From contig JAPDPX010000007.1 in NCBI GenBank assembly GCA_034506255.1, positions 372,001 through 436,000 of the forward strand: DNA of 64,000 nt. Reading direction: 5' to 3'. A program made the translations under genes and the position numbers. This DNA is from a candidate division KSB1 bacterium. GTDB lineage: Bacteria; Zhuqueibacterota; Zhuqueibacteria; Zhuqueibacterales; Zhuqueibacteraceae. The notes beneath the pieces were generated by a model. The model had not been told where the DNA came from. It saw only the letters and a program-made list of their open reading frames with translations, and made no database searches. The stretch's first letter is position 1, and the number at the start of each line of letters is the position of its first letter. Positions 26,283 through 42,478 of this stretch are shown piece by piece.

Positions 26283-29108
26283 TCAATGATTGAAGTAGTG
26301 CTTCCGGCAATATTTGATCTTCAGCAGTTTCGCGCTCGCGCCCAGGTGCCGGCCACAGACCAAACATCTGCCGGACTTTTCCCTTCTTTCCTGTCGCTGC
26401 CGCTCAAACTCACCGAGATCATAAGAACGGTCGGAGGTGCCGGAGAAGTCGAACGGTGAATTTTGCCCGCGGTTGCCGGCGTCGCCCGGATTCGCGGAGG
26501 CGTCGCCCATCATCTCCCCGGCGATTTGCTGCAGAATGTTGTCGATGACGCGCGAGCTGCGCCGCGGCGTGGCAGAGGGATCCACTTCGAAGAAGTTGGG
26601 CTGCTCATCCCGCGGCAGCTCCCTGGCCTGATATACCGATTCAACCGGCGGCGCGGCATCCCCGTGGGGCTCCGGCAGCGCGGGCGGTTTGTCGTAACTC
26701 CTGCTGCTGTGGCCGGGCCGCGGTGTCACGGGGCGTTCCGCCCAGTCGCCGGTGGCAGCGCGGGGCGTCGCCGGTTTGGCAGCCGCACTATTGGACCGGG
26801 CCGGGCTGCGTCCGGCCTGGTTGGGCTCGGCTTCCAGATCGCTGATATCAAATTCCGGGAGGTGTTCCTGAGCCGGCGCAATCGCGGTGGCCGTGGGCTT
26901 GGCGGTAATCATTCTTCCCCAGAAGCGCAGGCTGCCGGTTTCATCGCCGGTCACCAGGATGGTGCCATCCGGGCTGAAGGCGCTGGTGGTGAGGTCGCCG
27001 GCAATCACATGCGCCAGTTTGCCGTCGTGTACGTTCCAGAGCTTGATGCTGCGGTCCTGAAAATCGGTCGCCGCCACGATGGTTTCATCCGGACTGAAGC
27101 GCACCGCGGTGATGCCCGGCGAAAAGGGCGTGAGATTGTAGAGCAGCTTGCCGTCGGTGGCATCCCACAATTGCAGCGACTGGCCGTAATTGACCGTCGC
27201 GAGGATGGAACCGGAGGCACTCAGCGCCAGCCAACTGATGTTGCCGTTCTTGGCCGGCAGCGCATACAGCAGCGAGCCGTCGTCGACTTGATAGAAGCGT
27301 ACACTGCCGTCATTGGCACCGGTGATCAAAATTTTGTCATTCACGCTGAAGGCGAGGCTGTTGGCCAGTCCGGAGCAGCCCAGAAAACGGTGGCGCAACT
27401 TGCCTTCTTTCACATCCCACAGCATCGCCGTGTTGTCCGGGCTGCCGGTCGCCAGCATGCTGCCGTCATAGCTGAAGACCACGGTGTCCACGCTGCTCTT
27501 GTGGCCGCTGAAGCGTTGCACCAGCCGGCCGTCGGTGACCCGCCAGAGGGTCGCGTCACGATTGCTGCTGCCGATTGCCAGCATGGTGTCATCGGGGCTG
27601 AAGGCCAGACACTGTACCGCTGCGCCCGGCTCGCCGATCTCGCGCAATATTTGGCCCTTGGCCACATTCCAGAGCTTGACCGTGCCCTTGCGATCCACGC
27701 TCGCCAGCGTGGCGCCGCTGTGGCTGAAAGTCAAATCGCTGATGGCTTCGCTGTGGCCCTGCAGCGTGAACAGAAGCTGGTTGTCGCTCAGCCGCCAGAT
27801 TCTCACCGTGCGGTCGGTGCCGCCGCTCGCCAAATAGCTGCCGTGCGGGCTGATGGCAATCACATTGACGCGACCGTAGTGCGCCGACATCTTGTGCAGC
27901 GCCAGCTTGTGCACCAACAGGGATTGAAAAATGACTTCGATTTGCTGCAACAACTGCATGGCGTCGCGATTGTCGAAATAGGTTTTGCGCGCCATGCAGG
28001 CCCGGGCCTCCGCCAGAATTCGGCGCATGTCGGCCTCGGCGCTTTTGGCCTCTTCGGTGACAAACGACCATTCCGTCAGCAGCCGCTCGACCTTTTGAAA
28101 TTTGTAGCCCAGCTCGTCGCTGCTCTTCTGGCGCAGTTGCAGAAAAAGATCGGTGATTTCCTTGCGGCTATAGCGGAATTCCGGATCGACATCTGCCTTC
28201 AGGCAGTACTCCTCGTTAAGCGCAATGGCTTTCTCCAGCACGGCGGCCGCGGTTTTGCCGTCGCCGATCAATGCCGCCATTTTGGCGGTGTGATAGTGGC
28301 TCTCGGAAAGCTGGGGATAAATCTTGCTGGCCTGTTTGGAGAGCGACAGCGATTCCTGAATCAAACGGCCGGCTTCGATCTTGTTGCCCTTTTTGCCCTG
28401 CTGATCGGCCTGGGCATAGCAGGAGATGGCGGCGTGCAGCAGCGCCTCCCCGGCGAATTGCGCGGCTTCCGGCAGCAGCTTCATTTCCGCCTTGGCATAG
28501 CGCGCCGCCGCACGCAAATGGCGCTCGGCGGCCGCCAGATCGATCAGGTTGCACTCTTCATTGATGCCGTAGAGATAGAGCTTGCCGATCAGCAACTGGG
28601 TCATGAAGTTGGTGTCATCCTTCTTTTCCGACTCCAGAAAGGCCTCCAGCGCCTTGTCGAGCAGGCCCTTCACCAGCCGCTCGCAGCCGATGCGATAGTA
28701 CTCCCGGGCCTGGGTCAGCACCGGATTTTCCAGGGTGGCGTGGATGGCATCCAGACGCTTCTCGAGATTGAGCATGGTCTGGCTTTGCAGGCGCAGTTGT
28801 TCGACGACCAGCGCCATATGGTAATCGAAGCTGTTGCGCAGAGCGTGCAGAGCTTCGCCATTGGCCTGCATCACCTGGTTGAAATGGCCGAAATCGGAAT
28901 CCAGCGTGTGTGCCAGCGGATTGTAGCTCGCACCATATTTCTTTTCCAACGCCTGCGGGCTGGCCACCAGGGCGCGGGTCTGCTCCGGCACGGGCACCGC
29001 GGCCGGTTTGCCGGCCTGGCGGATCTGGCCTTTGAGATCCTTGACAAAGGAAGAAACCCGCAGATACTGTTCCCATGTCAGTTTCGAGCCAAGATGAAAG
29101 AGTGACAT
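26283..29108 (-). CDS. TPR/WD40 beta-propeller protein with C-terminal zinc knuckle, end of the pilus operon
   Basis: 941 residues. Residues about 130-390 are helical with TPR-like character (ERLVKGLLDKALEAFLESEK). Seven to eight WD40 repeats follow, each with the FSPDG and LWDV-type ending (HYGRVNVIAISPHGSYLASG through TTSAFSPDGTILVTGD). A Pro/Ala-rich linker then leads to a C-terminal CLVCGRHL...KYCRKHYF motif, Cys/His spacing of a zinc knuckle. No signal peptide or TM is seen, so a cytoplasmic scaffold is likely. The ATG at 29108 has AAGGA six bases upstream. Eighteen bases separate it from the secretin gene, so a link to the pilus machine is inferred from context only. Confidence 0.85.
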   Translation of the reverse strand: MSLFHLGSKLTWEQYLRVSSFVKDLKGQIRQAGKPAAVPVPEQTRALVASPQALEKKYGASYNPLAHTLDSDFGHFNQVMQANGEALHALRNSFDYHMALVVEQLRLQSQTMLNLEKRLDAIHATLENPVLTQAREYYRIGCERLVKGLLDKALEAFLESEKKDDTNFMTQLLIGKLYLYGINEECNLIDLAAAERHLRAAARYAKAEMKLLPEAAQFAGEALLHAAISCYAQADQQGKKGNKIEAGRLIQESLSLSKQASKIYPQLSESHYHTAKMAALIGDGKTAAAVLEKAIALNEEYCLKADVDPEFRYSRKEITDLFLQLRQKSSDELGYKFQKVERLLTEWSFVTEEAKSAEADMRRILAEARACMARKTYFDNRDAMQLLQQIEVIFQSLLVHKLALHKMSAHYGRVNVIAISPHGSYLASGGTDRTVRIWRLSDNQLLFTLQGHSEAISDLTFSHSGATLASVDRKGTVKLWNVAKGQILREIGEPGAAVQCLAFSPDDTMLAIGSSNRDATLWRVTDGRLVQRFSGHKSSVDTVVFSYDGSMLATGSPDNTAMLWDVKEGKLRHRFLGCSGLANSLAFSVNDKILITGANDGSVRFYQVDDGSLLYALPAKNGNISWLALSASGSILATVNYGQSLQLWDATDGKLLYNLTPFSPGITAVRFSPDETIVAATDFQDRSIKLWNVHDGKLAHVIAGDLTTSAFSPDGTILVTGDETGSLRFWGRMITAKPTATAIAPAQEHLPEFDISDLEAEPNQAGRSPARSNSAAAKPATPRAATGDWAERPVTPRPGHSSRSYDKPPALPEPHGDAAPPVESVYQARELPRDEQPNFFEVDPSATPRRSSRVIDNILQQIAGEMMGDASANPGDAGNRGQNSPFDFSGTSDRSYDLGEFERQRQERREKSGRCLVCGRHLGASAKLLKIKYCRKHYFNH

Positions 29109-29126
29109 GTGCAATCCTTGTGAATC

Positions 29127-30353
29127 TTATTTGAGGCGATTCGATTGCGGTGAGCGGCGGGGCTCACGCGCCGGATTCTTTTTCGTACCCCGCAGGTCGT
29201 CCTTTTCGGGGGCCTGGCGTAGCAGCTCCTGCCAGTCCCGTTTGAGTTGTTCACGCACATCCACCTGCCGGCCGCGGCGCCCCAGCAAGGGAGGCACGAT
29301 GCGGGCCTCCAGCAAAATCACCAGCTCCTTCTTGCGCAGGCGATGGCTGTTGTAGCCAAAGAGATAGCCCAGAATCGGAATGTCTTTCAACAGCGGAACA
29401 CCCTTGCGCACTTTGAGCCGTTCATGGCTCAACAGACCGGCCATCACCGTTTCCTCGCCATCGAGCAGCAGGACGTGAGTCTGGCCCTCGGTGATGCTCT
29501 TGGTGACGCCGATGGCATCGGGCTGCACATCGCTGCGTTCGGCGGTGAGATCGAGGTAGATGAAGGTGGAATCGTTGCGGCCGTGAAGCGTGGGCGCCAC
29601 CGTGAGAATGATGCCCGACTCATACTCCGAGAAGCGGGTGTTGCCGGCAAAATCCTGCAGCGTGAGATAGAAATTTTTGCCGACCTTGATCTTGCCCTTT
29701 TCACCATCCATCACGCGAATCTTGGGGCGCGCGATGATCTCACCCAGACTGCGGCTCTCGAAGGCGCGCAACAGGGCGTTGACATTCACCGCACCGCGGA
29801 TGCTGCCCCCGGCGGACACCCGCAGGATGTCCTTCGCCACCTCGTCCGCGCTGAAGGTTTGAAACTGCACCGTGCCGTTCTTGAAGGTGCTCCAGTTGAT
29901 GCCGAGTTCATGGAGGGTTTCATAATCCGCCTGAAAAAAGATGGCATTGATCTCAATTTCGCGGGTGTCGATTGAAATGTCATCCTCCTGCGCCTGTTTC
30001 GGTTCCGCGGCCGCCGCCTGGCCCGGCACCATCTCCAGCACTTCGTAGTACTGCTCGTGCGGTTCGTAGCGCAGCATGTTGGAGCGCAGCACATATTCCA
30101 GCGCGCGCTTCCAGTGCATGTTTTCCACCGACACGCCGATGGGCTTGTTGGGCGCCTTGGCATCGACGATCACCCGGTTTTCGAACTTGCGCGCAAAACC
30201 GGAGAGGATCTCCAGCGCGGTGGGCAGGGGCACATTGGGGTTCAGGGAAACCATCTCGTCCGGACCGTAGGGCTGGGTCGGCAGATTGTTCTGCCCCCGG
30301 GCCGCCACAACACCACACAGCACGAGCAGGCTGACGAACAGGCTTTTTTTCAT
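29127..30353 (-). CDS. Secretin (PilQ/GspD-type outer-membrane channel)
   Basis: 408 residues, short for a secretin. A signal peptide (MKKSLFVSLLVLCGVVAARG) is followed by one N-domain-like region (LPTALEILSGFARKF) and the secretin domain, with the conserved SLGEIIARPKIRVMDGEKG block, the GIILTVAPTL strand, and the C-terminal ETVMAGLLSHE-RKGVPLLKDIPILGYLFGY signature. It would form the gated outer-membrane pore through which the pilus or pseudopilus passes. No AMIN or multiple N-domains are present. It follows the PilO-like gene by 15 bases, matching the PilM-N-O-P-Q order. Confidence 0.92.
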   Translation of the reverse strand: MKKSLFVSLLVLCGVVAARGQNNLPTQPYGPDEMVSLNPNVPLPTALEILSGFARKFENRVIVDAKAPNKPIGVSVENMHWKRALEYVLRSNMLRYEPHEQYYEVLEMVPGQAAAAEPKQAQEDDISIDTREIEINAIFFQADYETLHELGINWSTFKNGTVQFQTFSADEVAKDILRVSAGGSIRGAVNVNALLRAFESRSLGEIIARPKIRVMDGEKGKIKVGKNFYLTLQDFAGNTRFSEYESGIILTVAPTLHGRNDSTFIYLDLTAERSDVQPDAIGVTKSITEGQTHVLLLDGEETVMAGLLSHERLKVRKGVPLLKDIPILGYLFGYNSHRLRKKELVILLEARIVPPLLGRRGRQVDVREQLKRDWQELLRQAPEKDDLRGTKKNPAREPRRSPQSNRLK

Positions 30354-30368: not shown

Positions 30369-31280
30369 TTAATTGTATTCAATATTGAGCCGAAGCGTGC
30401 GCATGCCCGTTTCGGAGCGGACTTCAAACTCCACCTGATTGCGGCCGATATCGATCTGGGTCAGCCGGCCGCGCCGGACGGCATCGCCGACCACCAACGG
30501 GAAAATCTTGCCATCCGCCCCGCGCAAATACGCCTTGTTGTTGGTGATCGCCAGCAGCGTCGCCCGCTCGACATCGAGCAGCTCCGGGGCCTCATCGGCG
30601 GGCACCGGCGCCGGCGCACTCACCGCCTCCGTCACCACCGTCCGCGCTTTGGCGGACAGCGGCACCAGGCTGTTGAAGGCATCAAAGGCAAACTCGGTGT
30701 TCCAATCCAATTGCGGCGAGGCCAGGGTCAATTCACTGCCGATTTCCCAGTCCTTGTTCATCGAGTAGCCTTCAAACATCAGGTTGAAGCGCAACAGTCT
30801 GGGCTCCTGTTCGCTGCGGCCAAAGTTGACGCTTTTGATCTGGTAAAGCAGGGGATTATGCGTCATGTACCACAACAGTGCAAAGATGTCCCGGTAGGGA
30901 CCTTCGCCGTTCAAGGTGTAGGAAAACGCCGTGTATTCCGCTGCCGGCTTCTTTTCGTTGAGATAAAAGTCGAAATCGATGTTCAGGTTGTGCACCTGAA
31001 TCAGCCAGTTGATGTAGGACAGCGAGAACGCCGGCTCCTCGGCGGCGATCAGCTTCTTGGCGGAATTCTGCCACAGCCGTTGCAGCGAATCACGCGTGGC
31101 CATCGCCAGGTTCAGTGTTTGCGCCACCTCCATCTCGCCGGAAAAACGCTGCCTGAGCTCCTGGGCCTTCTGGTTCAGCGCGGCGAGGGCCTGCGCCTCC
31201 CGGCGTTGCCAGAAAAATCCGAACCCACCAATGACAAGGAGAAGCAACAGCAGTGTCAGGCTGTTGCGCCGGGCATACAT
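30369..31280 (-). CDS. PilO-like inner-membrane alignment protein with PilP-like C-terminus
   Basis: 303 residues. One N-terminal TM helix (SLTLLLLLLVIGGFGFFW) follows a short Arg-rich cytoplasmic tail; then a coiled-coil region (REAQALAALNQKAQELRQRF) and a ferredoxin-like PilO core. After a Pro/Ala linker near residue 225, a small beta domain (TLLAITNNKAYLRGADGKIFPLVVGDAVRRGRL) resembles the PilP or GspC homology-region type module. This would join the roles of PilO and PilP in one protein, bridging the inner-membrane platform to the secretin. GGAGG lies nine bases before the ATG. Domain calls are by resemblance, not search. Confidence 0.75.
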   Translation of the reverse strand: MYARRNSLTLLLLLLVIGGFGFFWQRREAQALAALNQKAQELRQRFSGEMEVAQTLNLAMATRDSLQRLWQNSAKKLIAAEEPAFSLSYINWLIQVHNLNIDFDFYLNEKKPAAEYTAFSYTLNGEGPYRDIFALLWYMTHNPLLYQIKSVNFGRSEQEPRLLRFNLMFEGYSMNKDWEIGSELTLASPQLDWNTEFAFDAFNSLVPLSAKARTVVTEAVSAPAPVPADEAPELLDVERATLLAITNNKAYLRGADGKIFPLVVGDAVRRGRLTQIDIGRNQVEFEVRSETGMRTLRLNIEYN

Positions 31281-31306: not shown

Positions 31307-34078
31307 CTATTTGAGCATGACTATGCGATAACTCTTGATGAACAGATTGCCGATCTCCGCCGCCTTGCGTTCCGCCGCTTCGCGCGTTGCAAAGGTGCCA
31401 ATCAGCAGGCGATACCTGGGCTGCTGTGATTGCGCATCACGATACCGCTCGATGGTCACCTCCATCCCCTGCTTGCGATAAGTGGTGACGATGTCCTCCA
31501 CCGGCTCGTTGATCACCGCCGCCGTCGCTTCGATGGTGTATCCGCGTGCTGGCGGCCTGGAGCCGGTGGTGGCGGCCATGCGCGGTTGCGGCGTCTCCTG
31601 GCCGTTGTTGAGCTTGGGCACCGGCTTCTTGATCAAAACTCGGTAGACTTCCATCCCCTGCGCTTTGTCGAAATAAGGCGCCACCACCGCCTCGATGCCA
31701 CGCTTGCGATAGCCGGCTGCATACCACTCCGCCAGCTCCCGGGTATGGCAGGTGATGGCCTCGACCTTGTCGCCGTAATTTTCCTCGCGCATGGCGGTGG
31801 ACGAGGGCATGCTGCCGCCGGTGGAATGGGGATTGCCTGACGGGCCGTTCGTGACGCCGGTCGCACGGCTGGCATTGTGCACCATCCTGTCCTCCGCTAC
31901 CGGGTTCCTGCCGGCCGGTTTGCTGATCATCACGCGGTAATACTGCATGCCCTGGCGTTGGTCGAAATGGGGCACGACGATGGCGTCCGTACCGCGCTTG
32001 CGATAGCCCGCGGCATACCATTCCGCCAGATCTCTGGTCTGGCAGGTCATGGCCTCCACCCTTCCAGCCAACGCGCTGTCCTCGATTTCCGCGGCGGCGG
32101 CCGCACTGCTTGCACCAGCCACCGGTGCACGGTTTGGAATCGTGCGTTGCGCGGAAGCCATGGTCGGCTGGCGTTTTCCGGTGGTGGAGGCAACACCGCC
32201 GGTGTTGGCCGCTCGCGGCTGCGTCGCACTGCCATTGGCCGGCGCCACACGGCTCTCCGCCATGCGCTCAACCTGATTGGTCGGCCGGCGGGCATTGCGC
32301 TGCGCTGCCCCTGCTTCCGTTGCGCGCGACACGGCGGGCCTGGTCGTGCCCGCGGCCGCGCTTTGGGAGGGGGCCGCAGGTGGCGGGGTCGCCGGCGCAT
32401 TCGCAGCGAGCGCCGGCGCGGCAGTGGCGCCCTGCTTGTCTGCCGCCGTATCGCGGCCGCCCTTGGTCAACACCAGATTGCCGCCGGCAAACTGGCTGGC
32501 GTCGATGATGCGAATGCCGTTTTGGACGAACTCGACGTTCTCCAGCGGCTGGCGGCGCTCCAACTCGAAGGTCACCAGCCGCTGTTCGCTGGAATCCGCG
32601 CGCGTCATGCGGCGCAGATTGGCCTGCTCCAGCTTCTCGGCAAGCAACGGAACCTTGGCGCGGTTGGTGGCGGTGCCGCGCACCATGAAACCGTCGGGTT
32701 GTTTGGCGATTTCATCGATCCACAGGCCGCCGGTGCTCCCCACGCTCCGGTTGAGCTTTTGCAGGAAGGTGATGAATTCGTCATGCTTGCGGCTCAGACT
32801 GTCGGACAGGGCGAGATGCTTGCTCAGGCGGTTGATCTCGTTTTCGATGTCGAGCACGCGGTCGACCGTGCTCTGGTTGCTTTGAATCTGCAGCTCGAGT
32901 TGCACATTTTGCCGCTGCAGGCGGTAGAACTCCCGCCGGCTTTGAACGATCTGCCAGGTGAAGAAGAACGCCGTCAGGCCGGTGATGGCCAGCAGGGCAT
33001 AGCCGGTGTAGTTGAGCTTGAGCACCTGCTGCTGGTCGATCAAATCCTGCGGCAGCAGATTGAGCGGAATGAAGTCCGGATTTTTGGGATCCAGCAGTTT
33101 CCAGGCCAGGGCGATCGGCACGGCGAATTCGGAAAAGGTCTGGCCCTGCATCTCATTGGCGGGGAAGTTGCCGAGAGCGTTGGAGGTCGAGGTGAGATAG
33201 CGCACCGTCGCGTTTTCGAAATAGCCGGCAAAAAAATCCCGCGCCTTGATGCGGCTGCTTTTGCCCGCCAGCAGGATGGTGGAAATCTCCGGGATCTCGG
33301 CTTCATCCTGCTCATAAATGAGCTTGCGGTAAATCACCTCGAGATTTTCCGGGGAGGCCACGCCTTCGTGAATAATCGAGCTGACGTGAAACAGGTCCTT
33401 GCCGTGCAAAAACACCAGGCGGGTGAAATCATCTTCGATGTAGATGATCACGGTGATCTTGTCGGAACGCAGCTCGGAACCGGTGCGTGCCAGGTTGGCG
33501 AGCGCCACCTCGGTGGTGTCCATCAGGGCGAGAAAGAGATTGCCCTTGACGAAACTGTTGACTTCGCGCAGCAGCGACAGGGTGGGCGGATGCTTGTCAT
33601 AGGTCAACGCAAGGGTGCCGTCGCGCGATTTCAAACGTTTGATGCCGATCTCCGGGCTGGGGACGCGCTCGCCGGGGGGCGTGCCGGCCTGCGGGCCGCT
33701 CTCCCGCTGGTAGGTCACCATCGACAGCGGCAGATTGAACGCGATCTTGACCTTGCGCTGCGTATACTTCTGCAGCAGTTGATAGAGAACCTCGAGATTG
33801 GCATTGTCCTGCTTGTAGGTGGTTTCACCGGCGCCGCGTTCGCCCAGGCTGTCCTTCAGGCCAAAAGCATCCTTCAAACCGAAAACATCCCTGGTTTCGG
33901 CCTCTGCAGGGCCGCCGCTGGCAGCAGGCGCGGGCTGTTGCTCCAGCGTGTTTGCCAACTTGGCGCGTTCCAGGCCTTCAATTTGAATCTGGCCCTTGTT
34001 GTTGGTCAAATGCGCCAGCCGCACTTCCGTGCCGCTCACCGCAAGACCCAACGCGTGTTTGAGCTTGAGCCGGTTCAT
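31307..34078 (-). CDS. PilM-PilN-like fusion with tandem SPOR-like repeats
   Basis: 923 residues. Residues about 1-340 resemble the actin-like PilM fold (LGLAVSGTEVRLAHL at the start, then TVIIYIEDDFTRLVFL). A single TM (YALLAITGLTAFFFTWQIV) then leads into a PilN-like coiled coil and periplasmic core. A long Ala/Pro-rich linker ends in two near-identical repeats, TCQTRDLAEWYAAGYRKRG and TCHTRELAEWYAAGYRKRG, each ending in YRV-ISKP or YRVLIKKP, and a last SPOR-like unit with YRLLIGTFATREAAERKAAE. SPOR domains bind denuded septal or polar glycans, so this could anchor the machine to peptidoglycan. Such a fusion is not the standard PilM/PilN arrangement. Confidence 0.72.
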   Translation of the reverse strand: MNRLKLKHALGLAVSGTEVRLAHLTNNKGQIQIEGLERAKLANTLEQQPAPAASGGPAEAETRDVFGLKDAFGLKDSLGERGAGETTYKQDNANLEVLYQLLQKYTQRKVKIAFNLPLSMVTYQRESGPQAGTPPGERVPSPEIGIKRLKSRDGTLALTYDKHPPTLSLLREVNSFVKGNLFLALMDTTEVALANLARTGSELRSDKITVIIYIEDDFTRLVFLHGKDLFHVSSIIHEGVASPENLEVIYRKLIYEQDEAEIPEISTILLAGKSSRIKARDFFAGYFENATVRYLTSTSNALGNFPANEMQGQTFSEFAVPIALAWKLLDPKNPDFIPLNLLPQDLIDQQQVLKLNYTGYALLAITGLTAFFFTWQIVQSRREFYRLQRQNVQLELQIQSNQSTVDRVLDIENEINRLSKHLALSDSLSRKHDEFITFLQKLNRSVGSTGGLWIDEIAKQPDGFMVRGTATNRAKVPLLAEKLEQANLRRMTRADSSEQRLVTFELERRQPLENVEFVQNGIRIIDASQFAGGNLVLTKGGRDTAADKQGATAAPALAANAPATPPPAAPSQSAAAGTTRPAVSRATEAGAAQRNARRPTNQVERMAESRVAPANGSATQPRAANTGGVASTTGKRQPTMASAQRTIPNRAPVAGASSAAAAAEIEDSALAGRVEAMTCQTRDLAEWYAAGYRKRGTDAIVVPHFDQRQGMQYYRVMISKPAGRNPVAEDRMVHNASRATGVTNGPSGNPHSTGGSMPSSTAMREENYGDKVEAITCHTRELAEWYAAGYRKRGIEAVVAPYFDKAQGMEVYRVLIKKPVPKLNNGQETPQPRMAATTGSRPPARGYTIEATAAVINEPVEDIVTTYRKQGMEVTIERYRDAQSQQPRYRLLIGTFATREAAERKAAEIGNLFIKSYRIVMLK

Positions 34079-34089
34079 AAGGTGTCACT

Positions 34090-35331
34090 TCACGGGCGAT
34101 CGTACTTGATCAGGTCTTCGAAGCGTTTCTTGTTGTTGGCATTGTTGAGTGCCTCTTCGTAGGAAATCAGCCGGCTGCGATAGAGCCGCGCCAGGTCCTG
34201 CTCCATGGTGATCATGCCCTCGTTGCCCGACTGCTGGATGATTTGATAAATCTCCTCAGTGTGATTGTTGCGGATGGCGGCCCGCACCGGCGCATTCGCC
34301 ACCATTACCTCCTTGGCCAGCACGCGCTTGCCGTCCAGGCTGCGCACCAGCTTCTGCGAAATCACACAGGTCAACACACTCGCCAGGCGCTCGCGAATGC
34401 GCGGCTGCTCCTCGGGCGGCATTTCGCCCAAAATACGATCGACACTCTCCACCGCCGAGGAGGTGTGCAGGGTCGCCATCACTTTGTGGCCGCTGTCTGC
34501 CGCCTCCAACACCGTGGCGATGGTGTCCGGGTCGCGCATTTCGCTGATCACGATGATATCCGGATCCTGCCGCAAACCCTGCACCAGCCCGTCCTTGAAG
34601 CTGCGCACATCCCGCCCGACCTCGCGATGGCGTACCACACATTTCTGCGACACATGAATGTACTCGATCGGGTCGCCGATGATCAAAATATGGCCATTGG
34701 AAGTGCGGTTGTTGGCGTCGATGATGGTGTCCAGCGTCGCACTTTTACCGGAGCCGGTGATACCGGTCACCAGAATCAGCCCGCGCTTCTCATACTCCAA
34801 ATTCATCAGGCGCGCCACCTGGCGGTGGAAGCCCAACTCCTGAAACGGCCGCAGTTCGGGGTTGATGCGCCGCATGCTGAGCGACAGGTGGTTCAACTCC
34901 CAATAGATGGAAGAGCGAAACCGCCGGCGGCCCAGCGGCGTCACGAGCTGATAGGAAAAATCCAACTGCCGGTTGTTCCACAGCTCCTCCCGCTCCCGGG
35001 GCGTGAGCAAATTGAGCAGCATGATGTTGGTTTCAATGGGCGTGAATTCGCCCATCTCCGGATGAAAAGGCCGTTTGACCCCGTAAACCCGATACCACAC
35101 AAAACCGCTGCTGCCCACCGCGCCAAAATCCATGTCGGAGGCATCCTTGCTCTCCATGCTGATCATCAAAAACTCTACCGCCTGCCGCAATTGTTCGCGG
35201 ACTTCCACCGGCTGACTGTCCAGCAATTGCCCGATAAAATTCATCAACTCCAAGCCTTCCGCCCGCATCGGAATTTGCGGAATCAGACGGGCCAGAAGGT
35301 TCTTGGCATTCTGCAGTCGTTGGTCCAACAT
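34090..35331 (-). CDS. pilT: PilT-type retraction ATPase
   Basis: 413 residues. Secretion-ATPase motifs: Walker A ITGSGKSATLDTI, Asp box IGDPIEYIH, Walker B DPDIIVISEMRDPDTIATVLEAADSG and His box ATLHTSSAVESVDRIL. The PilT hallmark near the C-terminus appears as AIRNNHTEEIYQIIQ in place of AIRNLIRE. The N-terminal 130 residues are longer than in classical PilT. It should power pilus disassembly. The ATG at 35331 has AAGGGG six bases upstream. Presence of both a PilB and a PilT ATPase argues for a retractile type IV pilus over a plain type II secretion system. Confidence 0.9.
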   Translation of the reverse strand: MLDQRLQNAKNLLARLIPQIPMRAEGLELMNFIGQLLDSQPVEVREQLRQAVEFLMISMESKDASDMDFGAVGSSGFVWYRVYGVKRPFHPEMGEFTPIETNIMLLNLLTPREREELWNNRQLDFSYQLVTPLGRRRFRSSIYWELNHLSLSMRRINPELRPFQELGFHRQVARLMNLEYEKRGLILVTGITGSGKSATLDTIIDANNRTSNGHILIIGDPIEYIHVSQKCVVRHREVGRDVRSFKDGLVQGLRQDPDIIVISEMRDPDTIATVLEAADSGHKVMATLHTSSAVESVDRILGEMPPEEQPRIRERLASVLTCVISQKLVRSLDGKRVLAKEVMVANAPVRAAIRNNHTEEIYQIIQQSGNEGMITMEQDLARLYRSRLISYEEALNNANNKKRFEDLIKYDRP

Positions 35332-35395: not shown

Positions 35396-36304
35396 CTACC
35401 TCCAGGAAATTACCCGCATCGGCGGATTGTTTTTCGCGTAACGCGACACAAACCGGCGATAGTAGGAGGGAAAGTGCTGCACCGTCACGCTGCCGCCGCT
35501 GCCGTCCAGGCCTCCCCACGCCACCACGCCCCCCTTGATCAAGCTCTCGCTGGCGCTGCCACTGGCGTAGATCACACGGGAGCTGGTTTGCGGCAAATAC
35601 ACCACGCCGTTGATCGTGGCACCACTTCCCAAAATGACATTGCCCTCCACGGAAAAAATCCCCCATATCGTGCGTCCGTTTTCCACCCGCAGATCGCCCT
35701 TCACCACGGTGACATTGGGAGTCGAGCCGGAGTAGTAAAAGCTGCCATTGGGGTAGCCGTTGCTGGGCGTCAAATTACCGGGATACACGTGCGACTGCGC
35801 GATTGCGCGCGCCAGGAGTTCGTTGTCGTCGATACGGGGCATGAACGGCGCATTTTGAATAATCAAGTTCTGGTTCACCGCCCCGAGCGAGTCCTTGGCC
35901 GTAATGTTGATCACCGTGTCCCTGGCCCACACCGCGAAGCGATCAAACCCCCGGTCAAACACCGTGACCTCCACCTGGCTGGTGGTATCGGAATTGCCGC
36001 CGCTGGCACGAATGCGCACGCGATAAGGCCCCAGTGAGGGATCGTCATTCACATCGTCGACCGTCACATTGATCACGTTGCCGGCCAGTGTGAGATCGCT
36101 GTAACCGTCGCGCCAGGCAGGGTCCAGGTAAAGCTGATTGAGTGCCATGTAGGCGCCGCTGGTGGCAGCGTTTTTGGAAGTATAGCGGGCATAATGATCC
36201 ACCAAGCGGCTGGTGGAATCGATGAAGCGCTGGTTCTTGCTGAGCGACAGCATGCCAAACGAAGCGGCAAAACCGGCCATCAGAATGAGCAGCGTTCGTC
36301 CCAT
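35396..36304 (-). CDS. PilX-like minor pilin / polymer-forming-like protein with MG start
   Basis: 302 residues. It starts Met-Gly-Arg-Thr-Leu with an immediate hydrophobic helix (LLILMAGFAASFGMLSL), no classic leader. A globular part follows, with a beta-helix-like stretch (GRTIWGIFSVEGNVILGSG and ATINGVVYLPQ) like PilX/Flp-type or polymer-forming domains. Placement among minor pilins and its size suggest a tip or assembly component; function not proven. Gap of 64 bases to the pilT gene. Confidence 0.7.
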   Translation of the reverse strand: MGRTLLILMAGFAASFGMLSLSKNQRFIDSTSRLVDHYARYTSKNAATSGAYMALNQLYLDPAWRDGYSDLTLAGNVINVTVDDVNDDPSLGPYRVRIRASGGNSDTTSQVEVTVFDRGFDRFAVWARDTVINITAKDSLGAVNQNLIIQNAPFMPRIDDNELLARAIAQSHVYPGNLTPSNGYPNGSFYYSGSTPNVTVVKGDLRVENGRTIWGIFSVEGNVILGSGATINGVVYLPQTSSRVIYASGSASESLIKGGVVAWGGLDGSGGSVTVQHFPSYYRRFVSRYAKNNPPMRVISWR

Positions 36305-36398
36305 GTCGACCTCTGTGCAAAACTCTGTGGTACCACACCATCAGCAGGCGTTTGCAACGCGACGTTGCCGGGCACGCCTCTCTTACCCGGCGCCGCCC

Positions 36399-36971
36399 TC
36401 ACTGCGTCACCAAACTTGGCGGCGTGAAGCGTCCCAACCACACGAACTTGGGGTACTGATTGTCGGCGCCATAGTCGCCCTCGATGGTCAAACTGACGAC
36501 CAGCGAGCGAATGTTTGCCAAAACGGGGGTCGTGTTGCCGGTTGAGTCATAGTACAACACTTTGAATTCAGTCAGGCCGGTGGCAATGACCTCGGCGGTG
36601 CCGCCGTTGACCACGCGGTAGAGCACCTTGTCATTGGGATTCGGCGTCGCGCGCGCCACCGCATCGTCGGTCGAGCTCAGGTAATAACGCATCGTTTCCA
36701 GCGTGCCGTCGCCGTTGTCGTCCAGGACATAGCGCACGTCGGAGGCCTCCGCTTTGGTGATGATGTTCTGACGGGGATCATTGACACCATATCCGATCCG
36801 CGAAAAGTCGTAATCGAGCAACTGCACCACCGCGTCCATGTTGCCATAGGCAATGTGATCGAGCGTATCGAGCTGCAAATCACGGCTGACGTCGTTGTTG
36901 AACTGCTGGAAGGAGACCAGCACCATGCCGCCAATCACGACGCTCGCAATCAATGTGAGCCAGGATCCCAT
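36399..36971 (-). CDS. PilW-like minor pilin with MG start
   Basis: 190 residues from the ATG at 36971. Met-Gly-Ser-Trp is followed directly by the hydrophobic helix (LTLIASVVIGGMVLVSFQQF) and a PilW-like globular region with YYLSSTDDAVARATPNPNDK and LTEFKVLYYD. The longer frame from a GTG at 37019 would add 16 polar residues and could be read as a leader, but has no ribosome site. Minor pilins prime pilus assembly. Confidence 0.72.
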   Translation of the reverse strand: MGSWLTLIASVVIGGMVLVSFQQFNNDVSRDLQLDTLDHIAYGNMDAVVQLLDYDFSRIGYGVNDPRQNIITKAEASDVRYVLDDNGDGTLETMRYYLSSTDDAVARATPNPNDKVLYRVVNGGTAEVIATGLTEFKVLYYDSTGNTTPVLANIRSLVVSLTIEGDYGADNQYPKFVWLGRFTPPSLVTQ

Positions 36972-37104
36972 GTTTGAACTCGAAGAAAAGGTCTCGGTTT
37001 TGGCCGGGCGTCCTGCCACCCGGCGCCGGCCTCAAGCGACACCCCCGCCCCTTGCGCCCAGTACCACCGCCGGTGGAAGTGCTGGCGGTGATACACCTCC
37101 CGGA

Positions 37105-37638
37105 TTACATGTTCACACCGAAATAACTGAAAACGTGTTTCAAGGTCACGGTGGTCCCGGTCGGCAGCCAACTACTGGTCACGTTCACTGTCATGCGCTT
37201 GAGAAAGGTCTCATGCGACACCGCAGAATCCGGATTGGCCTCACTGACATAATGCACCTGAATGTTGACATTGAACGGAATGCCGTCGGTGCCCGTGAGG
37301 TTGGTGTTGGCGCCGTTCACGTAGATGGTCCGGCTGAACCCGTGATAATCATCGACGTCATTAAAACGCGGATACGACTCCGAGCCGCTGTGCCCCAGCC
37401 AGTTCCACGGTGTGAAGCCGTCCGGCATGTCACCGGGGGCAAGCACGCCGACCAAGGCATCGAATTTTTTTGAGCGCGCCTCCTCGATGAACTGCTGCGC
37501 CAGTGAAGCCGCCGCCTGGTGCAACGACAGCTCCTGCAGCGCCTCCCGGCCCTCCACCGTCTGACTATTGATCTGTGTCATCAGCAGCGTCAGCAACACC
37601 ACACTGACCAGCACCAACAGGAGTTCACGATATCCCAT
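37105..37638 (-). CDS. PilV-like minor pilin with MG start
   Basis: 177 residues. The ATG at 37638 gives Met-Gly-Tyr-Arg-Glu and then the helix LLLVLVSVVLLTLLMTQI; Glu at mature position 3 (if cleaved after Gly) could replace the canonical Glu5. The C-terminal domain is Asn- and Asp-rich (ESYPRFNDVDDYHGFSRTIY). A GGAAG site lies just before the start. Lies 53 bases after the PilB gene. Confidence 0.72.
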   Translation of the reverse strand: MGYRELLLVLVSVVLLTLLMTQINSQTVEGREALQELSLHQAAASLAQQFIEEARSKKFDALVGVLAPGDMPDGFTPWNWLGHSGSESYPRFNDVDDYHGFSRTIYVNGANTNLTGTDGIPFNVNIQVHYVSEANPDSAVSHETFLKRMTVNVTSSWLPTGTTVTLKHVFSYFGVNM

Positions 37639-37691
37639 AATCTTCCGTTGCGTGTTTGCGTGTGAACCGCGACGCGGCCGCCGCCTGCCGG

Positions 37692-39470
37692 CTATTCCAC
37701 CGTGGCCGCGACGACTTCTTCGATGGTGGTCGTGCCGGCTTTGATGCGTTCCCGGCCGGAGGCGCGCAGGGTCAACATGCCGCCGCGAATCGCCTCCTGC
37801 CGGATCAAGTCCTCGTCGATGTTCGCGGCATTCTTTAAAATGAGGCGCCGGATTTCGTTGGTGAACAGCAATGCTTCGGTGATGCACTGGCGGCCGCGAT
37901 AGCCGGCATAACACTTGTCGCAGCCCACCGGCTGGTAAAACGTGGTTTGGCGAATCTCATGATCGGTGAACCCGATGAAGCGTGCCATATCGACATCGAC
38001 GCGCTCCACCGGTTTTTTGCAGTGATCACAAAGCTTGCGCACCAGACGCTGCGCCATGATCAGGTTGATGGCATTGGCGATGAGAAACGGCTCGACCCCC
38101 AGCATGTAAAGCCGCGAAATCGCGCTGGGTGCGTCGTTGGTGTGCAGCGTCGAGAAGGTGATGTGGCCGGTGTTGGCCAGGCTCACCGCGATCTCCGCCG
38201 ATTTCAGGTCGCGCATCTCCCCCACCATCACGATGTCGGGGTCATGACGCAAAATCGAACGCAGCGCCTGATCGAAGTTGAGCTTGGGCCCCAGCTTCAC
38301 CTGGCGCGCCCCGCGAATCAGGTATTCCACCGGCTCCTCCACCGTCACCACGTTCTTGGTGGGGTCCATGATGCGGTGCAGCGCCGCCACCAGCGTCGTG
38401 CTCTTGCCGCTGCCGGTCGGCCCGGTGATGATGATCACGCCCTGCGGCTTGCGGATGGCCGCCTCGAAATCACGCGCCGCCTGCTCCTGCAGCCCCAGCA
38501 GATTGAGATCGGTGATCACCTTGCGGTCATCCAGCACGCGGATCACGATGCTCTCATAGCGCCGCTGCGATTCCGACACCACGATGGGCAGCACCGACAC
38601 GCGGAAACGGATATGGTAGTTGTCGATCTTGCGCTGGATGTAGCCGTCCTGTGCGATGTTGCGGTTGAAGCGGTCGATGTTGATCGAGCGGTCCTTGATC
38701 ACCGCCGCCACCGCCTCCGGCTTGACCGCAGACAGGGCATGCCAAAGCTGCAGCTTGCCGTCGATGCGAAAATGAAACTCGGTGACATTGCCTTCCTTGG
38801 GAATGATGTGAATGTCGCTCGCGCCTTTGCGCACCGCCTCGACCAGGGTGCCCTCGATCAGGTTGGTGAGCATGCTGCGGTTGATTTCGGCGTCGAGCGC
38901 CGCCTCGTCGATCTTGTCCTCCTCCTCGGCGTTGACCACCTCGACGTTCTGCAGCGAAGCTTCGAGCTGCTGCAAAAACTCGTTCTTGAACGCCATCACA
39001 CGGTCGATCAGGGAATTGACCTGCTCCAGCGGGCAGTAGGCGACCTCGATCTGGGTGTAGGGCAGATCCTTCAGCAGCAGCGGAATTTCCCGGTCCAGCG
39101 GGTCGGCGGCGATGACGGTCAGGACATTTTTGTTGTTGGTGCCGGGGCGAAACGGCAGGACGCGTTTGCTCAGCAGGCGGTTGCGGGCCTCCTCCGTGCA
39201 GGCGTCGATGGTCTTGCGGATGAAATCCAGTTGCGCGTCACCGATCTTCTCGCCGGTCAGGTCCACCTCCTTGAAGGCGTAGAGCTCGGCGATCGCCTGG
39301 TAGATGCGATGGCGGTCGATCTGAAAATCCTCGACCAGAATTTGCTGCAAGCGGCGCTGTCTGCCGGCCGGTTCCTGGCGCTGGGCCAGAATGGCCTTCT
39401 CCAAAATGGTCTGGGTGATGATCTGCTTCTGCAGCAAAATCTTCCCGATGCGAACTCCCATCGGTTCCAT
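37692..39470 (-). CDS. pilB: PilB/GspE-type assembly ATPase
   Basis: 592 residues, full length. N-terminal MshEN/GspE-II-type domains (KILLQKQIITQTILEKAI) precede the ATPase core: Walker A GPTGSGKSTTLVAAL, Asp box VEEPVEYLIRGARQ, Walker B HDPDIVMVGEMRDLKSAEIAV and His box STLHTNDAPSAISRL. The tetracysteine zinc subdomain is intact: CDHC near residue 490 and GCDKCYAGYRGR. It powers pilus extension on the cytoplasmic face of PilC. The gene precedes three minor pilins and follows pilC. Confidence 0.95.
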   Translation of the reverse strand: MEPMGVRIGKILLQKQIITQTILEKAILAQRQEPAGRQRRLQQILVEDFQIDRHRIYQAIAELYAFKEVDLTGEKIGDAQLDFIRKTIDACTEEARNRLLSKRVLPFRPGTNNKNVLTVIAADPLDREIPLLLKDLPYTQIEVAYCPLEQVNSLIDRVMAFKNEFLQQLEASLQNVEVVNAEEEDKIDEAALDAEINRSMLTNLIEGTLVEAVRKGASDIHIIPKEGNVTEFHFRIDGKLQLWHALSAVKPEAVAAVIKDRSINIDRFNRNIAQDGYIQRKIDNYHIRFRVSVLPIVVSESQRRYESIVIRVLDDRKVITDLNLLGLQEQAARDFEAAIRKPQGVIIITGPTGSGKSTTLVAALHRIMDPTKNVVTVEEPVEYLIRGARQVKLGPKLNFDQALRSILRHDPDIVMVGEMRDLKSAEIAVSLANTGHITFSTLHTNDAPSAISRLYMLGVEPFLIANAINLIMAQRLVRKLCDHCKKPVERVDVDMARFIGFTDHEIRQTTFYQPVGCDKCYAGYRGRQCITEALLFTNEIRRLILKNAANIDEDLIRQEAIRGGMLTLRASGRERIKAGTTTIEEVVAATVE

Positions 39471-39538
39471 GGCCTGACTCCTTCACAAGGGCTGGGAACA
39501 CCGGTTTCGTTGTACCGCCGGTGCCGCCCGCCCGGCGC

Positions 39539-40903
39539 CTACCGTCCCGGCACCGCGGGCATGCTGCCCGGCATGTTGGGGGAAACGAAACCGACTTCGG
39601 ATGAAATCAATGTGATGCCGACAATCAGAATCGAGATGAAAATCGAGACCGCGAGATTGATCAAATCCACCACCCGGCTCATCTTGTGGGTCGTTTCTTT
39701 TTCATAGAAATTGGCCAGCCGCAGCATGGCCTCGCGCAGTGTGCCGGATTCCTCGCCGCTGCGCAGCGTGTAAATGACATTCCTGGGAAACACCGCCGAC
39801 AGTTCCATGGCGTCGCTCAGGCTGCGGCCCTCGCGCAGCATCGCCGGAATCACCACTTCCTTGATCTGCTTCTCGAGGTAGCGGTTGCGGCACGCTTCGG
39901 AGGCGATGCTGATCACCTCGATGTTCTCGCCCGAGCCGCTGTAGAGCGCGTGAAACACGCGCGCAAACACCTCCAGGCTGGTTTTGTAGATGAGCTTGCC
40001 CACCACCGGCAGCGAGATGACCAGGCGGTGCCACACCACCCGGCCGCTGTCGCTGCGAAAATAGGCAACCAGCGCCGTGATCGGCACCGCGACGGCCAGC
40101 ACCACCCACAGGATGTTGTGCTGGAAAAACTCACTCACCCGCATGGTGGCCGCCGTCATCGGCGGCACCGCGATGTTGTATTTGAGCAGCATGCCGGCAA
40201 TCTTGGGGAAGATGTACATCACGTAGAAAATCAGCGCCCCAATCGCCGCCAGCACCACGAACGCCGGCATGAACAGCGTGCTGCGGATGTTCTTTTTGAA
40301 TTCCGCGGAGCGCTCCAAAAACTTGGCGGTGTTTTCGTAGATTTCCGCCATGTTGCCGCTGGTCGAGGCAATGCTCAACATGTGCGCGGTGAACTTGCCC
40401 AGCACGTCGGCATGCTTGAGAAAAACCTGGCGCCCCTCCTTGCCCATTTTGAGATCCTTGTGGATCTCCATCACCACTTCCCGCAGACGGGCATTCTCCA
40501 TGTCGTTGGCCAGCATCGTGAGAATCTCGTCATACGGAAACTGCTCGCGCAGCAGATCCGCGCACAGCCGAATGAAAACGACAATCTCCTTTTGCGGGAC
40601 GCCCAGCCGCAGGTTGAGCCAGTTGCGCTGCACCGAAATGGGCTGATACCCCATGCGGGTGAGCGACTCGCGCACCTCCTCCGCCGTGAACGCGGTGATC
40701 TCCCCGCGCAAAATCTTGTTGTTGCCCGGCCGCCGCGCCTTGTAGCTGAAAGGCACGCGCTTGTGCAGCGCCTGGATGCGCACGCGATACTCGCTCGCGA
40801 TCTCGTTGAGCTTCTTCTGCGCCTCGAAGCGATTCTGCGCCAGCAGCGTGCCCTGCAACGGCTTGCCGGCAAGCGTGATGCCCTGATAGCGAAACTCGGC
40901 CAT
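39539..40903 (-). CDS. pilC: PilC/GspF-type inner-membrane platform protein
   Basis: 454 residues. Two GspF domains, each with the TM pair typical of the family, including IPAMLREGRSLSDAMELSAVFP and LRSGEESGTLREAMLRLANFYE, the second family motif. An N-terminal 75-residue soluble extension (FRYQGITLAGKPLQGTLLA) resembles MshG or PilC leaders. It forms the rotor between the ATPases and pilins. The ATG at 40903 is preceded by three 7-base AGCATCC units instead of a ribosome site. Confidence 0.93.
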   Translation of the reverse strand: MAEFRYQGITLAGKPLQGTLLAQNRFEAQKKLNEIASEYRVRIQALHKRVPFSYKARRPGNNKILRGEITAFTAEEVRESLTRMGYQPISVQRNWLNLRLGVPQKEIVVFIRLCADLLREQFPYDEILTMLANDMENARLREVVMEIHKDLKMGKEGRQVFLKHADVLGKFTAHMLSIASTSGNMAEIYENTAKFLERSAEFKKNIRSTLFMPAFVVLAAIGALIFYVMYIFPKIAGMLLKYNIAVPPMTAATMRVSEFFQHNILWVVLAVAVPITALVAYFRSDSGRVVWHRLVISLPVVGKLIYKTSLEVFARVFHALYSGSGENIEVISIASEACRNRYLEKQIKEVVIPAMLREGRSLSDAMELSAVFPRNVIYTLRSGEESGTLREAMLRLANFYEKETTHKMSRVVDLINLAVSIFISILIVGITLISSEVGFVSPNMPGSMPAVPGR

Positions 40904-40928
40904 GCTGGATGCTGGATGCTGGATGCTG
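40902..40928. repeat. Tandem 7-bp repeat at the pilC start
   Basis: Three full copies of ATGCTGG (40902-40922) and a partial fourth directly overlap and precede the pilC start codon. On the coding strand the unit is CCAGCAT. Copy-number change would alter the distance between upstream signals and the ATG. Confidence 0.8.
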
Positions 40929-40951
40929 ATCACTTTCCGCCAAACATGAAA

Positions 40952-40987
40952 CAAGGAACAGGCCGGGGAGGCACGACCTGTCCCTTG
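40952..40987 (-). terminator. Hairpin after the first pilin-like gene
   Basis: CAAGGAACAGG (40952-40962) pairs with CCTGTCCCTTG (40977-40987), one mismatch, 14-base loop. On the minus strand TTTC follows. It stands 13 bases past the pilin stop and may cut transcription between pilin and pilC. Confidence 0.55.
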
Positions 40988-41000
40988 CTTCACAACGTGA

Positions 41001-41402
41001 TCAAGGTGTCATTGTCAGGCTGCGAATGCTGTCCGGGGTGATGACCACCGTCACCACCAGCGGCACACCATCGCCGTTGCCATCCTCGAGACCGGTGCCG
41101 ATAATCGTGCAGGTGCTGGCATCACCGCCACTGATGCTGTAACTGCCATTAAGATTGCTGCTGGGAAAATTGATGCGCTCGAGATGACCGTTGAGACCTG
41201 CAAAATTCCGCCCGCCGCCTCCCATGGCGGCAGGCCGGCGGTACCAGGCTTGTGCCCGTGCGGCAATGTTCATGATGTCATGAATAACCGCCTCCTGGTT
41301 GGCCTGGGTGGAACTGCCGGAAAACGAGTTGATTCCGACCAAAATGGCGGCACCTACGATGCCGGCGGCGAGAATGAGAAGCAAGAGCTGTTGCTGTCCC
41401 AC
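41001..41402 (-). CDS. Pilin-like protein 1, two-residue leader type
   Basis: 133 residues. Starts Met-Gly-Gln-Gln-Gln, then LLLLILAAGIVGAAILVGI, with NQEAVIHDIMNIAARAQAWYRRP continuing the amphipathic helix as in type IV pilins. The globular part has GGGG and two Asp-rich stretches (LEDGNGDGVPL) that look like a calcium-binding loop. There is no GFxxxE. Paralogue of the next gene (the helix and C-terminal layout match closely). Confidence 0.75.
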   Translation of the reverse strand: MGQQQLLLLILAAGIVGAAILVGINSFSGSSTQANQEAVIHDIMNIAARAQAWYRRPAAMGGGGRNFAGLNGHLERINFPSSNLNGSYSISGGDASTCTIIGTGLEDGNGDGVPLVVTVVITPDSIRSLTMTP

Positions 41403-41483
41403 GTGGCGACACTCCAGTTATTGGTTCGCCCGCTCCCTGACAGCGCATAGCATCCATGATTTTTCAAAAGGTGTTGTTGACGG

Positions 41484-41519
41484 CAAGAAAGGACAGGTTG
41501 CCTTTTCGGCAACCCGTCC
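41484..41519 (-). terminator. Intrinsic terminator after the second pilin-like gene
   Basis: Arms GGACAGGTTGCC (41491-41502) and GGCAACCCGTCC (41508-41519), one G-T type mismatch, five-base loop; on the minus strand TTTCTT follows. It lies 12 bases past the pilin stop and would make the pilin more abundant than downstream genes. Confidence 0.75.
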
Positions 41520-41530
41520 TCATGTCATCA

Positions 41531-41926
41531 CTATGGGTTGATCGTCATCGTTCGCACACTGTCCGGCGTGATGACAGCCGTGATTTGCAAATTGGTGCCA
41601 TCGCCGTCGCCATCTTCGACACCAGTGCCGGTAATGGTCAACGTTGTGGCGTTCCCGCCACTCAGGGCATAGCTGCCATTGGCATTGCTGGCGGGAAAAT
41701 TGAGGTTGGCGAGCGTCACGGTGGCGTAAGTACGGCCGCCACCGCCCATTTGCACCGGCCGGCGATACCAGGCCTGCGCCCGCGAAGCGATGGTCAAAAC
41801 ATCCTGCATGACCGCTTCCTGATTGGCTTGCGCCGAGTTCTGCGCGAACATGTTGATGCCGAGCGTGATCGCCACGCCGACGATGACTGCTGCGAGAATG
41901 AGCAAAAGAAGTTGCTGCTGACCCAT
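41531..41926 (-). CDS. Pilin-like protein 2, two-residue leader type (probable major pilin)
   Basis: 131 residues: Met-Gly-Gln-Gln-Gln, helix LLLLILAAVIVGVAITLGI, then NQEAVMQDVLTIASRAQAWYRRP, Gly-rich GGGGRTYATV and VEDGDGDGTNLQITAV, an Asp-rich loop. No canonical leader or Glu5. AGGAG precedes the ATG by nine bases, and a strong terminator follows, both fitting a highly expressed subunit. Closely related to the gene at 41001-41402. Confidence 0.75.
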   Translation of the reverse strand: MGQQQLLLLILAAVIVGVAITLGINMFAQNSAQANQEAVMQDVLTIASRAQAWYRRPVQMGGGGRTYATVTLANLNFPASNANGSYALSGGNATTLTITGTGVEDGDGDGTNLQITAVITPDSVRTMTINP

Positions 41927-42106
41927 GATGCAGTGCTCCTGTGATTGGGTTGGTTAACCGAAATCATCCGGCAGGTCCAAACCGTCCGATGATCAGTGAA
42001 GGGCTCAACGCTGACCGGCCGGTGTTTTCGTTTATACTGGAAATTGGCGAGAGGTGGAGAAATCTTCATCACTCTCCCCGGCTCAGCCTCCTTTCGCATT
42101 CAGGGT

Positions 42107-42478
42107 TCAGTGCGTCACCTCGAAGGAATCCGGGTAAACATCGACGACGATGCTCCAGTTGCGGTCATTGTACAGCCGGCCGACGATTCTCACACTGCCG
42201 GGCACGCAATAGGACAAATTCACCGTACCGAGGGAACTTTCGGGACGGAAATGGATTTTGTCGAACGAAAAATCCGCGAAGGATTTGCCGCCGCCGCCCA
42301 GCAGCGCCGGCGTGTGATACCACGCCTGCGCACGGGTGGCGAGATTGGCAACCAGCAGCAGAATTTGATCCCTCTCCGCAGCATCGGCGTCTTCCTGAAA
42401 GCGGTTCATGCCGACCACGATCGTGAACGCGGTGACCAGCGCCGCCAGGACCAGAAGCATCAATTGGTGTTGTGCCAT
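42107..42478 (-). CDS. Pilin-like protein 3 (divergent), MA start
   Basis: 123 residues: Met-Ala-Gln-His-Gln, helix LMLLVLAALVTAFTIVVGM, then RDQILLLVANLATRAQAWYHTP, GGGGKSFADFSF and a short C-terminal beta domain without the Asp-rich loop. The Ala replaces the Gly at position 2. First gene of the operon. Related to pilin-like proteins 1 and 2 in the helix and the RAQAWY-GGGG block. Confidence 0.72.
   Translation of the reverse strand: MAQHQLMLLVLAALVTAFTIVVGMNRFQEDADAAERDQILLLVANLATRAQAWYHTPALLGGGGKSFADFSFDKIHFRPESSLGTVNLSYCVPGSVRIVGRLYNDRNWSIVVDVYPDSFEVTH

Follow-up and report, generated by a model that had tools for sequence, protein, structure and literature searches.

The window, a 64,000-nucleotide stretch of a candidate division KSB1 genome, carries on its minus strand a single tightly packed operon with gaps of 11 to 180 bp, in the order pil3, pilA1, pilA2, pilC, pilB, mpI, mpJ, mpK, pilT, pilM/N, pilO, pilQ and a gene for a TPR/WD40 protein. 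The first three genes, all on the minus strand like the rest, encode major-type pilins. The pil3 product (42107..42478) starts MAQHQ (MAQHQLMLL), is 32% identical to pilA1 and has same-genus homologues that begin MAQQQ; pilA1 (41531..41926) starts MGQQQ (MGQQQLLLL); and pilA2 (41001..41402), 66% identical to pilA1, has the same MGQQQ start (MGQQQLLLL) read from a GTG codon, the same-genus copies L055 and L054 likewise using GTG or TTG. Downstream lie genes for a PilC/GspF inner-membrane platform protein (39539..40903; PF00482, E = 3.8e-36) and for the PilB extension ATPase (37692..39470), identified by PF00437 (E = 1.2e-103), an MshEN domain and a PilB tree. Three minor pilins follow: mpI in the GspI/PilV position (37105..37638; MGYRELLLV, a MGYRE start with Glu at residue 5), assigned by gene order and homologues; mpJ of the GspJ/PilW type (36399..36971; MGSWLTLIA, starting MGSWL); and mpK in the GspK/PilX position (35396..36304; MGRTLLILM, starting MGRTL), assigned by gene order and, as in GspK, without Glu5. 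The remaining genes encode the PilT retraction ATPase (34090..35331; PF00437, E = 3e-39), a PilM/PilN-like protein with a C-terminal SPOR domain (31307..34078; SPOR E = 1.3e-7, PilN marginal at E = 0.022), a PilO-like protein (30369..31280) and a PilQ-type secretin (29127..30353; TIGR02515, E = 5.7e-27, under the curated cut-off). The PilO-like protein, with no family match in the profile searches, was assigned by position and topology, and its place in the operons is conserved. A large TPR and WD40-repeat protein with a C-terminal Cys-rich motif (26283-29114) follows pilQ by 12 bp and appears to belong to the operon.

Extension ATPase, platform protein and secretin, which together mark the type IVa pilus (T4aP), are encoded side by side, as is PilT, which is conserved among the relatives' operons. 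The operon consists of pilin, ATPase, platform, alignment and secretin genes, with no spare peptidase gene among them. PilB, PilT and PilQ suggest a filament that extends and retracts and that may serve in adhesion, twitching or DNA uptake. A fourth leaderless pilin gene, starting MGNQQ (L052:8748-9116; G000:C2:578747), stands alone at another place in the window's genome, with no pilus genes nearby.

The window's pilins matched no family in Pfam, NCBIfam or PHROGs, and a PDB sequence search returned only geopilin matches, all insignificant. The ComP pilin family weakly matched 13 of 57 homologues. A pilin fold, with a long N-terminal helix and an antiparallel sheet, is predicted for pilA1: the AlphaFold2 model (57 sequences; mean pLDDT 85.9) combines an N-terminal helix of 54 residues with a sheet of four strands, and its likeliest PDB neighbours are the minor pilins PilV (0.95) and PilE (0.93), with PilA4 at 0.54, all at weak E-values of 0.08-0.16. 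The mpJ model matched GspJ/XcpW with a probability of 1.00 (E = 3.7e-4), while the I and K assignments of mpI and mpK rest on gene position or order and on the N-terminus only.

All six pilin ORFs begin Met-Gly or Met-Ala, as the first-pass annotation of this DNA had reported, but the two to four polar residues that it placed before the hydrophobic helix, of the QQQ type, are not found in MGSWL or MGRTL. Its claims that the main pilins have neither a leader of 5-25 residues nor Glu5, and that start-site error is an inadequate explanation, are borne out by stops close upstream and by Gln5 in place of Glu5, counting Met as residue 1. The starts at 42478, 41926, 41402 and 36304 have an in-frame stop 6-13 codons upstream with no start codon between. 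For mpI and mpJ the only upstream in-frame alternatives in the window are GTG codons, and these are what could be said for misplaced starts with longer leaders upstream. In homologues of mpI and mpJ, however, a stop lies one codon before the start: in G075, of the same genus, mpI reads stop-A-[M]GYREL and mpJ stop-R-[M]GSWL, with a single sense codon after the stop. Stop-to-stop translation of further homologues gave stop-K-MGQQQ (L014), stop-H-L-MGQQQ (L057), stop-A-MGYREL and stop-R-MGSWL (L054) and stop-P-MGHREL (L065). A search of the homologues for conserved leader codons upstream of the start found none, the in-frame stop often lying 1-5 codons upstream, and in 28 of 54 major pilins there are at most five in-frame codons between stop and start. 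Because of these stops a leader of ordinary size cannot be encoded, and start-site error, already refuted for the pilin family by the upstream stops in homologues, has a negligible probability. One homologous locus, L063:7310-7720 (the same gene as L094:9263, with a truncated copy at L092:2026), holds an MGQQQ-type pilin ORF of full length for which ATA (AATGGAGGTAAAAAATAGGACAACAACAA) is the only start codon that fits; a GGAGG lies shortly ahead of it, and a stop precedes it by two codons. This ORF may have a natural ATA start or may be a silent spare copy.

We collected 54 distinct major-pilin sequences with a profile for which MG was no requirement. Gly occupies residue 2 in 49 of them, Ala in three, Arg in one and Gln in one, and residue 5, with Met as residue 1, is Gln in 53 of the 54, a regularity that is not due to chance. 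Among the minor pilins, mpI has Glu or Gln at residue 5 in 15 of 17 sequences, and residue 5 of mpK and of most mpJ is hydrophobic. In several lineages residue 2 of mpI and mpJ homologues is N, H or D rather than Gly, and MS starts also occur. The pattern described as common to all six proteins, when checked for conservation in homologues, is strict in the major pilins and mpK; mpI and mpJ do not keep to it. Divergent second pilins in Balneolota-type operons (L215:12556-12930, L218:6003-6407, L216:6219-6599) begin MANKE or MGNRE, with Glu at residue 5 from Met.

Canonical mature pilins have Phe1 and Glu5; the major pilins here have Gln5 if Met is residue 1. A register scan of the major pilins, which was not clean, offsets 3 and 5 scoring above all three proposed N-termini (Met1, Gly2 and residue 3), was used only for ranking those three; among them, it is Met1 that brings the best-conserved polar residue to position 5. 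A class III signal peptide is a leader of 6-26 residues ending in Gly and followed by a hydrophobic tract (PMC4471445), and in these pilins one residue precedes the Gly.

Searching the species-level genome collection for the motif MGQQQLL[LI] gave 580 stretches, of which 480 were confirmed as relatives. Among the best 80 are KSB1, Calditrichota, LCP-89, Zixibacteria, Ignavibacteriota, Kryptoniota and Balneolota, cultured species included. Conservation of the MG(x)QQ start extends from KSB1, to which the window belongs, to Balneolota, Ignavibacteriota, Kryptoniota and other groups. Most relatives' loci of sufficient length contain the same operon, with one to four major-type pilin genes in tandem and a gene order kept across phyla. 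Leaderless pilins were found in 33 of 82 genomes of the window's GTDB phylum and in 34 of 80 genomes (one doubtful, E = 6.8e-4) of the GTDB phylum of Aliifodinibius, hereafter the second phylum. In a quick PilB tree (main clade of 48 rows, SH-aLRT 91) the leaderless-pilin loci form one group, separate from the PilB/GspE genes that adjoin canonical prepilins of the same phylum. In those canonical prepilins the leader is charged and ends in Gly, and the start is of the FTLIE type, so leaderlessness is a trait of the pilus system and not of the organisms. Immediately ahead of the pilin genes, three Ignavibacteriota loci (L111:2957, L122:7411, L139:6797) carry a divergent PilB gene, their second, which branches away from the operon PilB.

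Most operon-bearing genomes have no PilD prepilin peptidase. The A24 family was detected by PF01478, which was positive in 12 of 14 control genomes. Among genomes of the window's phylum with a completeness of at least 90% and a contamination of no more than 5%, A24 was present in all 24 with canonical N_methyl pilins, and none was found in 10 of the 24 with leaderless pilins; the same ten, three of them from the window's own genus (G075-G077), also had no N_methyl pilins. No A24 was found in 18 of 25 named genomes reached through the loci, cultured ones included, and PF06750, the second PilD domain, fell under the cut-off in all 28 A24-negative genomes checked. The second phylum gave no A24 in 29 of 33 leaderless-pilin genomes, and its four A24-positive genomes (G120, G125, G169, G181) all have N_methyl pilins as well (Fisher p = 1.2e-4). 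One second-phylum genome, at G182:C6:31832-31903, is the sole A24-negative leaderless-pilin genome there with an N_methyl match (E = 7.1e-7). In total about 60 of 88 leaderless-pilin genomes have no detected A24 (three twice-occurring genomes removed), and this set includes cultured Fodinibius, Gracilimonas and Stygiobacter. Genome incompleteness does not explain the missing A24, since high-completeness genomes and essentially single-contig ones (G136, with a contig of 4,502,320 bp; G177, 2,354,932 bp; G109, 3,430,829 bp) also have none; we ruled out on these grounds that A24 was missed through incomplete assembly.

The window's own genome does have an A24 peptidase, as a search for a PilD-type enzyme established, but its single copy sits within a type II secretion (T2SS) operon on contig C18 and not in the pilus operon. 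That T2SS operon encodes canonical prepilins, such as those in which EQG, TQG and ERG are followed by LTLIEVMLVVIILG, FTLVETLVALTIF and LTLIELCLTLLIL, respectively. In G046, G050, G052 and G053 the A24 gene lies beside TadE and/or RcpC, marking Tad loci, and G025-G028 and G030 each have several N_methyl pilins. Wherever checked, the A24 genes of leaderless-pilin genomes belong to another system, T2SS or Tad.

These data bear on the suggestion, made with the first description of the proteins, that a minimal leader ending at residue 2 is cut off by a prepilin peptidase, so that the mature pilin starts at residue 3. The near-invariant Gly2, with Ala2 in three more major pilins, looks like the -1 position of a prepilin, a resemblance to the Gly before the A24 cleavage site that counts against a leaderless model; one A24 is available in the window's genome, and A24-type enzymes are promiscuous, although the known leaders have 6-26 residues (PMC4471445). 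Cleavage after Gly2 would, however, put the Glu/Gln at mature position 3, and it would have to take place in genomes where the only A24 belongs to a T2SS operon or where, as in the same-genus genomes and most others with these pilins, there is none. It would also have to extend to mpI and mpJ homologues with N, H or D at residue 2, and we know of no A24 prepilin peptidase that cleaves after those residues. We rejected A24 cleavage after Gly2 on the absence of A24 from the genomes, and regard it as very unlikely. The retention of a near-invariant Gly2 in genomes without A24 does ask for explanation, and a peptidase of some other, unknown family might cut at this position. The operon offers no candidate gene for such an enzyme, and in several lineages the machine's own minor pilins do without Gly2; a non-A24 peptidase is, on balance, improbable.

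The locus could also encode a short pseudopilus or secretion machine with leaderless pseudopilins rather than a surface pilus, as its mpI-mpJ-mpK set resembles GspI-J-K and mpJ matches XcpW. Set against this are the conserved PilT retraction ATPase, the tandem major-type pilin genes, the lack of GspC at the locus and the separate, complete T2SS on C18, which together make a pseudopilus highly improbable. The leaderless conclusion stands under either reading.

We therefore favor, with a probability of roughly 0.84, the reading that the locus encodes the machine of a type IV pilus that very likely retracts and whose leaderless pilins need no prepilin peptidase. Translation would begin at the mature N-terminus or one residue before it. 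With no leader to cleave, the pilin would insert into the inner membrane so that its short MGxxQ tip faces the cytoplasm; PilB and PilC would polymerise it without a prepilin peptidase, PilT would retract the filament, and the filament would exit through PilQ. The place of Phe1 of ordinary mature pilins is probably taken by the initiator Met, or by Gly2 once methionine aminopeptidase has acted, and that of the canonical Glu5 by Gln5 (Glu5 in mpI and some divergent pilins); a neutral Gln5 would require no N-terminal amine to neutralise it. In cytosolic proteins with Gly or Ala at residue 2, methionine aminopeptidase is expected to clip off the Met. Those homologues of mpI and mpJ with an MN, MH or MD start should keep their Met; the major pilins may either keep it or have it clipped, so that the earlier proposal of assembly with only Met removed comes close to our explanation in all but the removal itself.

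It is quite probable that this represents a branch of type IV pili, spread across several phyla, that has dispensed with prepilin processing: its subunits would be born mature, the filament N-terminus would be Met (or Gly2), Gln5 would replace the buried Glu5, and genomes without a prepilin peptidase would have working pili. That a dedicated peptidase removes the leader is regarded as a universal and defining step of type IV filaments, and detection models require it (PMC4471445, PMC6668835). Leaderless pili, as predicted from these genomes, contradict that universal step. We found in the open-access literature no paper presenting an MGQQQ sequence as a pilin and no report of pili without a prepilin peptidase in these groups. 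If the reading is correct, leader cleavage is not mechanistically required, these systems are a natural test of the purpose of leader cleavage, N-methylation and Glu5, and pilus surveys and signal-peptide predictors have overlooked pili in several phyla, the cultivable Balneolaceae included.

Among known systems, the Tad/Flp pilus has no counterpart in the operon, where the markers TadE, RcpC/CpaB, a short Flp pilin and TadV were all absent; the relatives' Tad loci are separate. The T2SS pseudopilus belongs to the same superfamily and shares the GspJ-like minor pilin, but that of the same genome has pseudopilins with ordinary leaders and Glu5 and A24 in its operon, whereas the pilus operon has PilT and no identified GspC. 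The MSHA pilus resembles the window's system in that its locus has no prepilin peptidase gene, but MSHA is confined to genomes in which the peptidase comes from another system (PMC6668835), and here whole genomes have none. With the T4aP, for which the MacSyFinder model makes PilD mandatory (PMC6668835), the window's system shares homologous extension and retraction ATPases, platform and secretin, the predicted pilin fold and GspI/J/K-like minor pilins. It differs in having no leader peptide, in the Gln5 rather than Glu5 of its major pilins and in its predicted independence of a prepilin peptidase, which many of the genomes do not have. Although it departs from the T4aP in the defining class III signal peptide and in prepilin-peptidase processing, the system is homologous to that pilus and probably works like one.
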